Assembly (NCBI GenBank): GCA_022562295.1
Contig: JADFPO010000017.1
Location: forward strand, 1 to 45,142
From: Gemmatimonadota bacterium
GTDB lineage: Bacteria > Gemmatimonadota > Gemmatimonadetes > Gemmatimonadales > GWC2-71-9
Direction of reading: 5' to 3'
DNA: 45,142 nt
Both the position numbers and the translations under genes were made by a program. Below, piece by piece: positions 19,685 to 31,753 of the stretch. The notes beneath the pieces were generated by a model. The model saw only the letters and a list, made by a program, of their open reading frames with translations. It was not told the DNA's origin and did not search any database. Position 1 is the first letter of the stretch; every line of letters begins with the position of its first letter.

Positions 19685-20571
19685 CCCTCCTCCATCGGCG
19701 TCGGTAGCACCGCCCGCTTCTTACGCTTTTTCCGGTTGCGCCGCCGCTGCAGGTCCTCCAACCCACACAGGGTATCGACGCCGCGTTCTCCGGCAAGGTT
19801 CAGCATCTGCTGTAACACCAACGCCGTGGCCATCGCATCACCACCCGCCCGATGGCGATTCTCGATCGCGATATCGAGATACCGCGCCACACTGTCAAGA
19901 CTGCGTGAGCGAAGACCCGGAATCAAACGCTTCGCAAGCCGTACCGTGCATAGGCGCGGTCCATCGAGTGTGATATCGAGAGCGCGGCGCGTCTCTAGCG
20001 ACACGAACGACCAGTCGAATCGAAGGTTATGGGCGACGAAGATGCGACCGGCCAGCGCGCCCACCACGTCACTCGCGATTTCCGTGAAGCACGGCTTGCC
20101 CCGAATCTTCTCCTGCGTAATACGGGTCACGCGGGTGATGACCGATGGGATTGGGCGTTCGGGATCGATCAACGTGTCGATCGCCATCTTCACCGCACCT
20201 CCGTAAAGAACGGCTATCGCGATCTCGATTATCCGATCACCTTTTCCAGGGCTCGAGCCCGTGGTTTCGACGTCGACAACGGCAAACGTGCACTCGGTAA
20301 GTTTGGGGGATCCCACCGTTTGCCGCACCAGTTCCCACCGTGCGTCGAAGCGGCGCCGCACCCTCGGATCTGACGCGAGCAAGGCGCTGGCCAGCCGCTC
20401 CGCGACTGGTGACGACGTGGACGCGATGCCGAGAACCTCGTGAACCAACGCGGTACTATTGGCGGGTCCGGCCTCGAGGTAGTCGAGCGCTTTATCCACC
20501 AACTTGCCGGCGGGCCGTGCCTGCACGCCGCCGGTCACAACGCATCCCGTAACAGTGGCAGTGACATGCAC
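19681..20571 (-). CDS. DnaQ-like 3'-5' exonuclease (start approximate, 20538-20571)
   Basis: FAVVDVETTGSSPGKGDRIIEIAIAVL, FVAHNLRFDWSFV, RHRAGGDAMATALVL. The upstream ORF extension overlaps arcA and is non-protein-like. Confidence 0.88.
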   Translation of the reverse strand: MHVTATVTGCVVTGGVQARPAGKLVDKALDYLEAGPANSTALVHEVLGIASTSSPVAERLASALLASDPRVRRRFDARWELVRQTVGSPKLTECTFAVVDVETTGSSPGKGDRIIEIAIAVLYGGAVKMAIDTLIDPERPIPSVITRVTRITQEKIRGKPCFTEIASDVVGALAGRIFVAHNLRFDWSFVSLETRRALDITLDGPRLCTVRLAKRLIPGLRSRSLDSVARYLDIAIENRHRAGGDAMATALVLQQMLNLAGERGVDTLCGLEDLQRRRNRKKRKKRAVLPTPMEEG

Positions 20572-21764
20572 CGCGGCCCGCCACCGCCTCGGACCAACTC
20601 GCTTCCCCGAATCGTCAAGATCGTGCGCTCTTCGTCGTTGACTTGGTCGTCGCCCGACAGGAAATCCTCGAACCCGACGATGCGAAATCCGGCTTTTTCG
20701 AGTTCTCCGAGCGTCGCCTCGTTTCTCTTGTACGCCAGAGCCAGGCCAGGGCGGAGTGCCAGCAGGTTGCAGCCGGAGGCCCACTGCTCTCGCTCCTGCA
20801 GGGCCCGATCCGAACCGCCACACAATATCGGCTCGAGGGCAAAATCCACTTCCTTGAGCGCGGCGAAGAAATCGGGCATCTCACGGACCCCGGCCTTGCC
20901 CTTTCTCCGGTGCAACACCGCCAACCGTTGCGGTCCGATGAACTGCGGTGGCGACACCACACACAAACCGTGGTCGATCTGAGTGAATAGCATGTCGAGA
21001 TGCACCGCGGTGGGCTCACCTGGCATGACGACGACGATCACGTCCGAGATGCCGCACCGCGCCATCGCAATGTCGCACAAGTGATCCAGGGCCATTGCAC
21101 TCGTGCGGTCGCTGAAGCCAACGATGAGCAGATCCTCACGCACCGGATGCACATCGCCCCCCTCGAGCGTGTAGCCCAGTCGCCGCTCCTCCGACCCATC
21201 GTAAATAATGCCGTCATTCTCCAACACCGGATGACATGCAAAAAGCGCCTTGATGAGCAACTCTTCGGACCACCGCGCCTCATGGCGCATCGAGCCTATC
21301 ACCGCGTGGCTGCCAATCACGATGCCCACGTCGCGCGTGAAGAACAGGTTGGGCAGTGGAGGAAGGGCGTATCCCCCTTGGTTGAGCGTTCTGGCAATGG
21401 GCCCCGCAACGTCTTCGGCACCTTGGATCAACATCGTGACCAAGTCGTCCGCGGGCCGGTCGGCAAGGAGCTTGGAAACGTTGCCCGCATAGGCGATATG
21501 CTCCGTCTGCGCCGCGAGCAGCTTCCTCGCGTCCTCACTCTCGGCAATATGCCGCAGTAGGTCGCCCACTTCGTATACCTCGGCGAACCGTTGCAACACC
21601 GCCACCATCGAGCGATGCTCGGTGCGGGCCGTGTCTAACTCGATAATATCGTCGTAAAGAAAATCCCGGCGCGTTCCCGGGGTTACCGCCAGAACCTCGT
21701 TTCCAGGCTCATGAACCAAGACGGCCCGCAACGGGCCGATCTCGGAGGAAACATGTATGGGCAT
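20535..21764 (-). CDS. arcA: Arginine deiminase
   Basis: PLPNLFFTRDVGIVIG, TLEGGDVHPVREDLLIVGFSDRTSA, TAVHLDMLFTQIDHGLCVV, catalytic Cys region RGGGGPRCMSLPLLRDAL. Confidence 0.93.
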   Translation of the reverse strand: MPIHVSSEIGPLRAVLVHEPGNEVLAVTPGTRRDFLYDDIIELDTARTEHRSMVAVLQRFAEVYEVGDLLRHIAESEDARKLLAAQTEHIAYAGNVSKLLADRPADDLVTMLIQGAEDVAGPIARTLNQGGYALPPLPNLFFTRDVGIVIGSHAVIGSMRHEARWSEELLIKALFACHPVLENDGIIYDGSEERRLGYTLEGGDVHPVREDLLIVGFSDRTSAMALDHLCDIAMARCGISDVIVVVMPGEPTAVHLDMLFTQIDHGLCVVSPPQFIGPQRLAVLHRRKGKAGVREMPDFFAALKEVDFALEPILCGGSDRALQEREQWASGCNLLALRPGLALAYKRNEATLGELEKAGFRIVGFEDFLSGDDQVNDEERTILTIRGSELVRGGGGPRCMSLPLLRDAL

Positions 21765-21772
21765 GGCGCAAT

Positions 21773-22393
21773 CTAGCGATTCCTCAGCCCGTAACTCAAC
21801 GCCTCCAATTCCAACACCAAGCTCACGTTTTTCACGATCACATCGTCGGGAACGCGGAGTTGGATCGGTGCGAAATTGAGGAGTGCCTTCACACCGGCTT
21901 TGACCAACCGATCCACGATTTCCTGTGCCGCTCCGGCCGGTGTGACCACGATGGCCATGTCCACGAGTTCCTTCGCCAAGTCCGCTTCCAGCCGCCTTTG
22001 ATCGCGGATTGGAATCGAGTTTCGTTTCTGCCCGATTTTCTTCGGGTCGCAGTCGTACAGCGAGACGACGTGGAAGCCGTGCTGCTCGAACCCCCGAAAA
22101 TGCGCCAAGGCCGCACCGATGTTGCCGGCCCCAACCACCACGATGCGGTAGGTTCGCTCCAACCCGAGAATGTCTCGTAGTCGGCCCGCCAATTCGGGCA
22201 CCGAGTATCCGAACCCACGCTTGCCAAACGACCCAAAGAACGAAAGATCCTTGCGAACCTGTGCTGACGTGGTCCCCCCGCGTGTAGCGAGCGCTTCCGA
22301 ACTCACCGTCTCGGTGCCCTGCCGCTCGAAGTCTTCGAGGAACCGCAGGTAGAGGGAGAGGCGGCGTACTGTGGATTCGGCGATCTTTCGCAT
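21773..22393 (-). CDS. rex: Redox-sensing transcriptional repressor Rex
   Basis: TVRRLSLYLRFLEDFERQGTETVSSEALATRGGTTSAQVRKDLSFFGSFGKRGFGYSV (winged helix) and IVVVGAGNIGAALAHFRGFEQHGFHVVSLYDCDPKKIGQ (Rossmann). Confidence 0.96.
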   Translation of the reverse strand: MRKIAESTVRRLSLYLRFLEDFERQGTETVSSEALATRGGTTSAQVRKDLSFFGSFGKRGFGYSVPELAGRLRDILGLERTYRIVVVGAGNIGAALAHFRGFEQHGFHVVSLYDCDPKKIGQKRNSIPIRDQRRLEADLAKELVDMAIVVTPAGAAQEIVDRLVKAGVKALLNFAPIQLRVPDDVIVKNVSLVLELEALSYGLRNR

Positions 22394-22397
22394 GGTA

Positions 22398-22415
22398 TTG
22401 TGAAATTTTTCACAA
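22398..22415. promoter_or_regulatory. Rex operator
   Basis: TTGTGAAATTTTTCACAA, a perfect match to the TTGTGAA-N4-TTCACAA Rex consensus, 4 nt upstream of the rex ATG. Confidence 0.92.
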
Positions 22416-22442
22416 CATAGCCGCTGCGAAAGTGAACGTCAA
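22414..22442 (-). promoter_or_regulatory. Predicted rex promoter
   Basis: TTGACG (22442-22437), 17-nt spacer, TATGTT (22419-22414). The -10 overlaps the Rex operator; the -35 overlaps the rsmA stop codon. Confidence 0.6.
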
Positions 22443-23233
22443 CGAGACATCGCCCTAAACAACTTCACAAATTCTTGGGGCGTCAGCACTTCCGGGCGCG
22501 AGGTCGAGGCGATTTCGAGCGACTCCAACGTCGCCGCCACCGAGGCAGCGGTGCGGCCGGAGATGGTTCGCAGGCCTCGGGCGACCTGCTTGCGCCGCTG
22601 GCCGAACAGGCCGGTCACGAACCGGCGGAACGGGATGCGCTCGCCGGGATCCACCATCGGCACGGACCGAGGCCGGATGCGCACGAGAGCCGAATCGACG
22701 CGCGGTGGTGGCCTGAACGAGCCGGCCTTGACCACCTGGAGCCGCTCGACCGAGGCGGCTGCCTGCACGCCGACGGTGAGCGCACCGTACGCCGACGTCC
22801 CAGGAGCCGCCTCCAGCCGATCGGCCACCTCGCGCTGCACGAGGAAAACGACTACGACCGGTGTCTGCTCGGCAAGGGCCTTGTCGATCAGCGGCGTGGT
22901 AATGGAGAACGGAACGTTGCCGACCACCTTGAACGGGCGCACCTTCGCGCCCGCAGCGGCCGCCGCCACACTGGCCCCCCAGTCGACATCGAGCGCGTCG
23001 GCGTGGATGACCGTACAATGCTTCACGTGAGCTTGTTGCAGCTCGCGAGCCAACGCTGCGTCCTTCTCGATGGCAACCACTGTCCGCACCCTCGGTGCGA
23101 GCCGACGGGTCAACGATCCCTTCCCAGGGCCGATTTCCACCACATCATCATCGTCTCGGGGATCGAGAGCATCGACGATGCGATCGAGGATGGCCGGATC
23201 GAAAAGGAAGTGCTGGCCGAGGCGGCGCGACAC
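22439..23233 (-). CDS. rsmA: 16S rRNA (adenine(1518)-N(6)/adenine(1519)-N(6))-dimethyltransferase
   Basis: RLGQHFLFDPAILDRIVDAL, VVEIGPGKGSLTRRLA, VVGNVPFSITTPLIDKAL, SFRPPPRVDSALVRI. Confidence 0.95.
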   Translation of the reverse strand: MSRRLGQHFLFDPAILDRIVDALDPRDDDDVVEIGPGKGSLTRRLAPRVRTVVAIEKDAALARELQQAHVKHCTVIHADALDVDWGASVAAAAAGAKVRPFKVVGNVPFSITTPLIDKALAEQTPVVVVFLVQREVADRLEAAPGTSAYGALTVGVQAAASVERLQVVKAGSFRPPPRVDSALVRIRPRSVPMVDPGERIPFRRFVTGLFGQRRKQVARGLRTISGRTAASVAATLESLEIASTSRPEVLTPQEFVKLFRAMSR

Positions 23234-24729
23234 TACGCCTTGAGCACCACCACGGTGCGATCGTCCGTCGCAACGTCGGCAAACGAACTCACCGCGTTGA
23301 ACACCGCCTCCACGATTTCTACCGCAGGGTTGTTTCGGGTTTGGCGCACGATATCCAGCACCCGTGCTTCCCCGAAAAGTTCGTCAGACCGGTTTCTTGT
23401 TTCGGTTATTCCGTCGGAGACCAATACCAGCAGGTCCGAGTCGGGGGCCCACTCTACCGAACTCCCCTCGATGGCGCCCGGCTCACCCAAACCGAGCGGC
23501 GGAGCGGTGGCCGCGAGGCGTTTCGCCGAGCCGTCACCAGACATACGCCAGGCATGCGGATGCCCGGCGTTGGCGTAGCGGAGGATGCCGTGCTCCGCAT
23601 CGACAATCCCGTAGAACAGCGACAAGTACATCTCGGTCTCGGCCAGTTCCGAGTTCACCGACGCCAACAACTGATCGAGTGCGGCTTCCGGAGACTCCGC
23701 CGCGACAGCATGGATGCCCGCTGCCGAGAGCACCAGTGCCATGATGAGCGCCGCGGCAAGTCCATGAGTGGACACGTCACCGAGCATGACACCGACTTGC
23801 GAGCCGGGCAGCCGGACGAACTGGTAGAAGTCACCACCCACGTCCTCCGCCGGTCGGCATATCGCGGCCACGTCAATTTGTGGCCCCAACAGCGTCGGTG
23901 AAGGCAGCAATCGAAGCTGCAGGTCGTGCGCCAACTGCAGTTCTTGCCGCACGCGTTGACGCTCACGGTCGAGTTCGACGAGGCGGGCGTTCTCGATGGC
24001 AGCACCAATCTGATGCGCAATCGCCGTCACGAGCTTGGCGTGCCCGTGACCGAACGCGTCTTCGCTCATCCGGTCTGTCAGGTTGATCACACCGACGGGA
24101 CGGGCCACCCCATCCGGGTCAGGATACACGATCGGGACGGAAAGAAATGCTTTCCCGCGGTACGGACGCGTCATGGCATCGGGATCTTTCCACATTCCGT
24201 CATCGGACGCGTTGCGCAGCACAGTGTCGCATTCACGAAATACTCGCGCGGCCACCGACATCTCGTCGTCGACCGGGATCGGTGTAAAATCGCTGACGTC
24301 GACTCCCCACCCCGCCACCGGACGGAGTGTGCGATGCTCGGCGTCGTACACGAGAATGGATGCCCGTCGGGCTCCGACGACCTTACTCACTTCTCGAACG
24401 ATGACGCTGGCCGCCTCTTCCAACCCGATCGTCCGTCCAAGTACGGCGCTGATGGTATAGAGTAGGTCGATCTCCTCGTAATGGCGTGTCAGTTCCTCCG
24501 CCACGTGCAGCGTCTCGCCCTCGGTTTCCACCAGCCGCGTCAGTAGCGGGCCCAATGCGAGTTCGTGGTCTGGATGGTTGCACTGGTAGTAGTAGTCAGA
24601 GATGCCAGACAGGGGTTGGAGCCTGTCCGCACCCGAGCCGTCCACGTCCGGTACCGTCGGGACCTTCTGATCGGACCTCAGCGATGGGCCGGCAACGAGC
24701 TGCATCGTACGCTCGCTTGCACGCCACAC
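23233..24729 (-). CDS. GAF-domain PP2C/SpoIIE-type serine phosphatase (RsbU-like)
   Basis: GAF region (TISAVLGRTIGLEEAASVIVREVSKVVGARRASILVYD) and SpoIIE region (ICRPAEDVGGDFYQFVRLPGSQVGVMLGDVSTHGLAAALIMAL; DLLVLVSDGITETRN). Confidence 0.92.
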   Translation of the reverse strand: MWRASERTMQLVAGPSLRSDQKVPTVPDVDGSGADRLQPLSGISDYYYQCNHPDHELALGPLLTRLVETEGETLHVAEELTRHYEEIDLLYTISAVLGRTIGLEEAASVIVREVSKVVGARRASILVYDAEHRTLRPVAGWGVDVSDFTPIPVDDEMSVAARVFRECDTVLRNASDDGMWKDPDAMTRPYRGKAFLSVPIVYPDPDGVARPVGVINLTDRMSEDAFGHGHAKLVTAIAHQIGAAIENARLVELDRERQRVRQELQLAHDLQLRLLPSPTLLGPQIDVAAICRPAEDVGGDFYQFVRLPGSQVGVMLGDVSTHGLAAALIMALVLSAAGIHAVAAESPEAALDQLLASVNSELAETEMYLSLFYGIVDAEHGILRYANAGHPHAWRMSGDGSAKRLAATAPPLGLGEPGAIEGSSVEWAPDSDLLVLVSDGITETRNRSDELFGEARVLDIVRQTRNNPAVEIVEAVFNAVSSFADVATDDRTVVVLKA

Positions 24730-29973: not shown

Positions 29974-31753
29974 TACTCCTCCCGGTTCGAATGACGTTCC
30001 AACGTCCTGGCTTGAGTTCGGCCAACCGCCGGCTCAGGGAATCGATTTGTCGTGTCAGGGTTACCTTCTCATCCGTAGGCGCCACGGCAAGCTGCCTCTG
30101 TACCTGCTCCAGCGTCGCTTCTACGCTTCGGCTATCGAGATCGTTGATCGCGCCCGCGACGAGGGCGTCCACGTCCAAGTCGCCCCATGCCTCTTCGAGC
30201 AACTGGGCGAGGACTGCCCGCACCTCTCCATCGACCTCGCGGAGCATTTGGGGCCCGGTCGCCTCATCGGGCTGAATTGCCAGATATTCGAACAACTCGC
30301 GGTCGGGGCCGCCGAGAATCGATGTGTCTGGCACGAGCTCGGCGATGCGCGATCGCCATTGGGGCTCGTGTACCATGACACGCGTCAGGTTCCGTTCCGC
30401 CGACCCGCCCCCACCACCCAGGCGCCCTCCATCAGGCCCGGTCGCCGCTGGGCGCTCTCGCCAAACGGACCGACGAGGGACGCCAGAATCAATCTCTCTC
30501 CGAACGGAATTCGCGTGGATCCCCAACGTCTCCGCGACACGATTCACATACAGATCTCGGGTGACCGGATCGCCCGCCGCACGCAGTGTTGGCAACAAGC
30601 GATCGAGAGCACGTCGCCTCCCAGCAATGCTCCCCATCCAACCCTTGCGGTCCAGCAGCTGGAGTTCGCGCTCGAACACGTCCACCGCATCATCGATAAT
30701 GTGCACGAGCGCCTCCGCCCCATCTTGCACCACGAGGGAATCAGGATCTTGTCCGGGAGGCAGTGTGGCGATCATTCCACGGATGGACGCCCGCAGTATC
30801 TCATCGGCGGCCCGAAAACTCGCTCTCATACCCGAGGGATCGTTGTCGTACAGTAACACGACCTCGCGGGTGTAGCGTTTGAGCAACGCCGTCTGCTCGG
30901 ACGTGAGGGCCGTGCCGAGCGGCGCGACGACGTGCTCTATCCCCGCTTCGACCGCCCGCAGCACATCGAAATATCCTTCGACCACGACGGCCTTCTCGTT
31001 CCGCCGGATCGCCGCGCGTGCGTTATGCAGATTGTAGAGCAATTGCCCCTTGTGAAAGATCCTCGAATCCGGCGAGTTGAGATACTTCGGCTCTGCGTCA
31101 CCGAGCGCCCTGCCCCCGAAGCCCACCACTCGGCCGCGCAAGTCATGAATGGGGAAAAGCAATCGTCCCCAGAAACGAGGCCGCAACGAGCCGTCCTCAC
31201 GCCGAACCACCAGTCCGGCCTCGAGCAGGCTATCCTCCGACACGCCCAACCTACCCATCGCCTCCAGGAACACGCCGCCTTTGGGGGCGAACCCCAATCC
31301 CAACACATCGAGTCCTTCGCCGGAAAACCCCCGCTTGGCAAGGTACGCACGCGCCTCCCCGCCGTCGGGTGATTCCCGCAGCCGCTTGGCATACCACTCC
31401 GCGGCAACGGCAACCGCCGAGAACAGGGGTTCTCTCGGGTCCGGGCCGCCGGTCGGCCGGTCGGGAATGATGACGCCGACCTTCGCCGCCACCTCCCGCA
31501 CGGCCGTGGGATAATCCATCCCGAGATGCTTCATGTAGAATGCGAACACGTCGCCACCCTCGTGACACACGAAGCAATAGAACATCTGTTTTTTCGCGAT
31601 CACCGCGAGGTTTCGCTTGGTGCCGCCGTGAAACGGACACGGCCCCCGAAAATCCGCGCCGGTGCGCCTGAGATCGACATGTTCACCTATGATGTGTACG
31701 ACGTCGGCGGAATCGCGAACCTGCTCGATCACTTCGTCGGGAATCGCGGTCAC
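29963..31753 (-). CDS. dnaG: DNA primase
   Basis: IPDEVIEQVRDSADVVHIIGEHVDLRRTGADFRGPCPFHGGTKRNLAV...FYCFVCHEGGDVFAFYM; Toprim VVVEGYFDVL. GTG start at 31753 overlaps the mutS2 stop. Confidence 0.95.
   Translation of the reverse strand: MTAIPDEVIEQVRDSADVVHIIGEHVDLRRTGADFRGPCPFHGGTKRNLAVIAKKQMFYCFVCHEGGDVFAFYMKHLGMDYPTAVREVAAKVGVIIPDRPTGGPDPREPLFSAVAVAAEWYAKRLRESPDGGEARAYLAKRGFSGEGLDVLGLGFAPKGGVFLEAMGRLGVSEDSLLEAGLVVRREDGSLRPRFWGRLLFPIHDLRGRVVGFGGRALGDAEPKYLNSPDSRIFHKGQLLYNLHNARAAIRRNEKAVVVEGYFDVLRAVEAGIEHVVAPLGTALTSEQTALLKRYTREVVLLYDNDPSGMRASFRAADEILRASIRGMIATLPPGQDPDSLVVQDGAEALVHIIDDAVDVFERELQLLDRKGWMGSIAGRRRALDRLLPTLRAAGDPVTRDLYVNRVAETLGIHANSVRREIDSGVPRRSVWRERPAATGPDGGRLGGGGGSAERNLTRVMVHEPQWRSRIAELVPDTSILGGPDRELFEYLAIQPDEATGPQMLREVDGEVRAVLAQLLEEAWGDLDVDALVAGAINDLDSRSVEATLEQVQRQLAVAPTDEKVTLTRQIDSLSRRLAELKPGRWNVIRTGRSSAV

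Follow-up and report, generated by a model that had tools for sequence, protein, structure and literature searches.

A Rex-type palindrome on the predicted rex promoter of a Gemmatimonadota bacterium points to NADH-responsive autoregulation

The Gemmatimonadota bacterium analyzed here very probably switches off its own rex gene at low NADH, via a palindrome embedded in the rex promoter. Rex binding, the response to NADH, repression, and the transcription start site are inferred from the DNA sequence. We consider it highly probable that the account holds as a whole, with a Rex operator in an internal promoter, autorepression that responds to NADH, and further targets among the genes for ATP synthase and electron transport. 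Gemmatimonadota are abundant yet poorly studied bacteria, and a single palindrome here leads to a testable class-wide regulon.

Results

The palindrome TTGTGAAATTTTTCACAA, at positions 22398 to 22415 of the window (the 45,142-nt stretch of DNA that was analyzed), agrees with the Rex consensus TTGTGAAN4TTCACAA in 14/14 arm positions. Because rex is encoded on the minus strand, the operator reads TTGTGAAAAATTTCACAA on the rex strand. Between it and the rex ATG (22393) lie only the 4 nt TACC. Given the base composition, chance alone would yield 0.0017 perfect sites and 0.09 sites with at least 13/14 matches in a genome of 3.79 Mb, while 2 perfect sites and 3 with one mismatch were observed, and a reversed control pattern had no match in the source genome.

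A sigma-70-type promoter, TTGACG-N17-TATGTT, is predicted on the minus strand between 22442 and 22414 and is the sole promoter-like match in the region from 20400 to 23400 (shuffle mean, 0.5). Its -35 hexamer, TTGACG (22437 to 22442, minus strand), overlaps the stop codon TGA (22441 to 22439) of the upstream gene rsmA, and its -10 hexamer, TATGTT (22414 to 22419, minus strand), has its last two bases within the operator. The initial annotation, which had described a perfect Rex palindrome 4 nt from the rex start codon and overlapping the -10, is thus borne out to the nucleotide. Since these two bases are shared, transcription is predicted to start inside the operator, near 22407 on the minus strand and 7 nt past the -10, judging from the hexamers. 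The predicted rex transcript would then carry a leader of about 14 nt. No Shine-Dalgarno-like motif was found before rex, as had been noted initially, and of 15 window genes checked, the majority likewise lack one. The further suggestion that the transcript is leaderless or nearly so does not follow and was abandoned, because the promoter geometry predicts the leader of about 14 nt and genes without a Shine-Dalgarno sequence are common in this genome.

The upstream neighbor of rex is rsmA/ksgA, encoding the 16S rRNA dimethyltransferase (22439 to 23233, minus strand). The two genes lie on the same strand, and no terminator-like site was found in the 45-nt gap between them, so that read-through from rsmA may also transcribe rex. 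Such transcription may be affected by Rex only if the bound protein acts as a roadblock. Possibly, rex is transcribed mainly in this way and the palindrome serves mostly as a roadblock or as an RNA hairpin at the start codon, consistent with the strong fold predicted around the rex AUG in the read-through RNA (22380 to 22442, minus strand; -20.9 kcal/mol, z -3.5). We regard this explanation as improbable, however, given that the outer stem shows no conservation of its spacer bases, that the palindrome arms are fixed in sequence without covariation, and that the same palindrome is found at divergent promoters, those of the F0 atp operon and a MoxR gene. An RNA element as such was ruled out because the outer stem is not conserved and the region has no Rfam match.

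The rex gene itself (21773 to 22393, minus strand) encodes a redox-sensing repressor of 206 amino acids, with a winged helix-turn-helix domain and a Rossmann domain identified from domain and family matches. The N-terminal winged helix matches PF06971 over residues 3 to 51 (69.6 bits; cut-off, 27), and the C-terminal NAD(H)-binding Rossmann domain matches PF02629 (74.8 bits), its GxGxxG signature being present as GAGNIG in the translation. Scores for the NCBIfam Rex models also exceed their cut-offs (NF003995, 248.7 versus 126; NF003993, 245.1 versus 217), every PDB match is Rex under that name or its synonym, and one related locus (L055) stands at 80% identity. Rex of Thermotoga maritima reads DNA with Arg48, Lys49, Arg60, and Gly61 (PMC8836258), and in an alignment these residues are kept in the window protein as R47, K48, R59, and G60. 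Judged by these features, the product is a genuine Rex protein.

An arginine deiminase-family gene (20535 to 21764, minus strand) follows 8 nt after rex, with the same gene order in 26 of 34 related loci. It is probably cotranscribed with rex and would therefore also be under the operator. The gene scores far under the NCBIfam arcA cut-off, and the substrate of its product may differ.

Across the class, Rex-type sites accompany rex. The gene was detected in 129 of 149 genomes, and sites with at most one mismatch occurred in 125 of these 129, versus 3 of the 20 genomes without rex. The association is strong by Fisher's test (p 7e-16, kinship ignored), a value that serves as a guide only because relatedness makes the genomes nonindependent. 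In G008 and G009, two genomes of the same family that lack rex, atpA is present without a site, whereas the rex-containing relatives examined carry sites with 13/14 matches before this gene. Another genome in which rex went undetected (G148) keeps five sites, one of them before atpA, and we believe that its lack of rex is probably an assembly gap. Four genomes (G089, G098, G123, and G144) have rex yet lack any site within one mismatch of the consensus; in these, the Rex motif may have changed.

This distribution also bears on the identity of the regulator. The palindrome contains a perfect CRP half-site pair, TGTGA-N6-TCACA, about five regulators with cNMP-binding domains are encoded in the source genome, and in Staphylococcus aureus the Crp/Fnr-family protein ArcR shares targets with Rex (PMC2883068). 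Conceivably, then, the palindrome is a CRP/FNR-family operator through which a cNMP-type regulator controls rex. Yet the inner bases A7 and T12, which are dispensable for CRP, are invariant in 37 rex-upstream sites, with a modest bias toward such invariance as the sites were chosen at a threshold of at least 12/14. Moreover, the sites are lost together with rex, and the operator adjoins rex itself. Judged from the sites and from rex, neither their distribution nor their inner bases are independent of Rex, and control by a CRP/FNR-family protein is very unlikely.

The position of the Rex operator is preserved among relatives. In almost all genomes of the same genus, family, and order, the palindrome is found immediately before rex and ends between -2 and +15 nt from the start codon. 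Alignment of rex upstream regions in related genomes, a check named in the initial annotation, agreed with its reading: the operator arms and the promoter are conserved, while the surroundings have diverged. In seven related loci the invariant columns comprise CGTTGAC, the TA of the -10 (within a pattern TA..(T)T), the operator arms, and the ATG, and across related loci the arms were kept while the spacer and the operator center diverged.

Of 34 loci, 24 have TTGAC at a distance of 26 to 29 nt upstream of the operator, with all three rsmA reading phases represented. In the window it shares bases with the stop codon of rsmA (CG TTGA C), whereas elsewhere it is read in another phase, as Val-Asp codons, and in three loci of the survey (L031, L046, and L049) rsmA ends far off or is absent. 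Since TTGAC is kept whatever the phase or adjacency of rsmA, coding constraint is not its explanation and a true -35 is supported; its conservation as a by-product of rsmA codons was rejected because the phase differs between genomes. Taken by their sequence conservation, the operator and TTGAC look like real promoter elements. A chance palindrome, or conservation due to rsmA coding sequence alone, can be dismissed: rsmA codons or the stop codon do overlap with the -35 and, in some of the relatives, with the -10, but a site with at least 13/14 matches within 60 nt of rex has a chance expectation of 1.5e-6, the operator is intergenic in the window, and TTGAC persists in three phases as well as at loci where rsmA is not the neighbor. 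One subclade (L059 and L061 to L063) lacks TTGAC, and there the operator itself supplies the rsmA stop TGA. A TTGCGC/TTGCGT motif conserved in a subclade and taken as a -35 turned out to be rsmA coding sequence (LLRW).

Beyond rex, sites stand before atpA (F1 operon) and before the F0 atp operon (first gene PF09527), the latter site lying between this operon and the divergent gene for a MoxR-type ATPase. A site with 2 mismatches in the source genome (L009) precedes a gene for a plastocyanin/azurin-type cupredoxin, and a further site (contig C155, source genome) precedes a probable alternative complex III operon that begins with a cytochrome c7-type gene. In relatives, sites are also present before an isocitrate lyase/PEP mutase-type gene, nuoA, and a gene for a NiFe-hydrogenase-type small subunit, the alternative complex III, isocitrate lyase, and hydrogenase assignments being made partly by reading of the sequences. 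This set of candidate sites suggests a coherent respiratory Rex regulon.

The F1 sites (L003/L138 and the atpA loci of relatives) mostly read TTGTGA[T/C]..TTCACAA and the F0 sites (L004/L139 and the F0 loci of relatives) TTGCGAA..TTCACAA. Most species share the same deviating base in these sites, whereas a perfect match is the rule at rex.

The second perfect palindrome of the source genome (G000) is at positions 31129 to 31146 of contig C105 (L001, L141), where it directly precedes a small DUF5678-like open reading frame and a putative aspartyl-protease-like open reading frame. No site of this type before such reading frames was seen in the relatives examined.

Discussion

The proposal of direct autoregulation made in the initial annotation gains support from the conservation of the operator and promoter, the presence of a genuine Rex, the co-occurrence of rex and its sites, and the respiratory nature of the candidate regulon. 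In the mechanism that we propose, the internal promoter would drive rex together with the arginine deiminase-family gene. At low NADH, a Rex dimer, NAD+ bound or free, would bind the operator and cover the -10 and the start site, thereby blocking RNA polymerase, and a rise in NADH would release Rex and derepress rex. Such negative feedback would set the level of Rex by the redox state. In addition, Rex may repress two ATP synthase operons and other electron-transport genes via sites that are mostly imperfect.

This circuit is not new in kind, as Streptomyces already provides a precedent for both autoregulation and Rex control of ATP synthase. In Streptomyces avermitilis, EMSA, ChIP, and footprinting have identified rex, ATP synthase, and complex I genes as direct targets of Rex (PMC5355995), and Streptomyces Rex autoregulates rex-hem and has atpIBEFHAGDC, nuo, and cyd among its targets (PMC5355995). 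Streptomyces and Gemmatimonadota share the same 18-mer motif, TTGTGAAN4TTCACAA, and the mismatch in the S. avermitilis atpI site (TTGTGAT...) falls where the Gemmatimonadota atpA sites also depart from this motif. The arrangements differ, however. The Streptomyces rex site covers the -35, whereas here the operator is predicted to lie over the -10 and the transcription start; the genes joined to rex are hem genes there and an arginine deiminase-family gene here; and, unlike in Streptomyces, the F0 and F1 genes are apart, each with its own site.

Rex of S. aureus recognizes the consensus TTGTGAAW4TTCACAA and binds upstream of arcA, encoding arginine deiminase (PMC2883068). There, arcA has a Rex site to itself and forms a separate target, whereas in the window the arginine deiminase-family gene follows rex. 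Likewise, the S. aureus regulon consists mainly of fermentation and nitrate genes, in contrast to the respiratory candidate targets in Gemmatimonadota.

Thus, while Rex autoregulation is a textbook circuit, here it appears to have been kept throughout a little-studied group and to extend to the genes for ATP synthase and respiration. We found no paper joining Rex with Gemmatimonadota within a literature coverage that was incomplete. If the account is true, the NADH/NAD+ state would control the genes for ATP synthase, alternative complex III, cupredoxin, and complex I.

Given the differences between the sites, a graded response to Rex is plausible. A more far-reaching view, in which Rex of the Gemmatimonadota governs oxidative phosphorylation as a graded master switch, with the imperfect ATP synthase sites ordering derepression as NADH rises and with sites in genus g59 acting beyond promoter repression, is a tentative idea that we hold to be doubtful.

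The genus in question (g59 of family f7, e.g., G065; L146 to L174 and L185 to L200) has 14 to 30 Rex-type palindromes per genome, versus 0 to 7 in all other genera of the class. These may possibly represent an expanded Rex regulon or serve another role. An origin from repeat elements was considered and rejected, as there are no long shared flanks and no inverted repeats around the two sites checked. When 16 loci from two other species were sampled, about ten G065 loci had an orthologous site-bearing locus among them. Some of the sites fall within open reading frames and are kept at the same genes between species.
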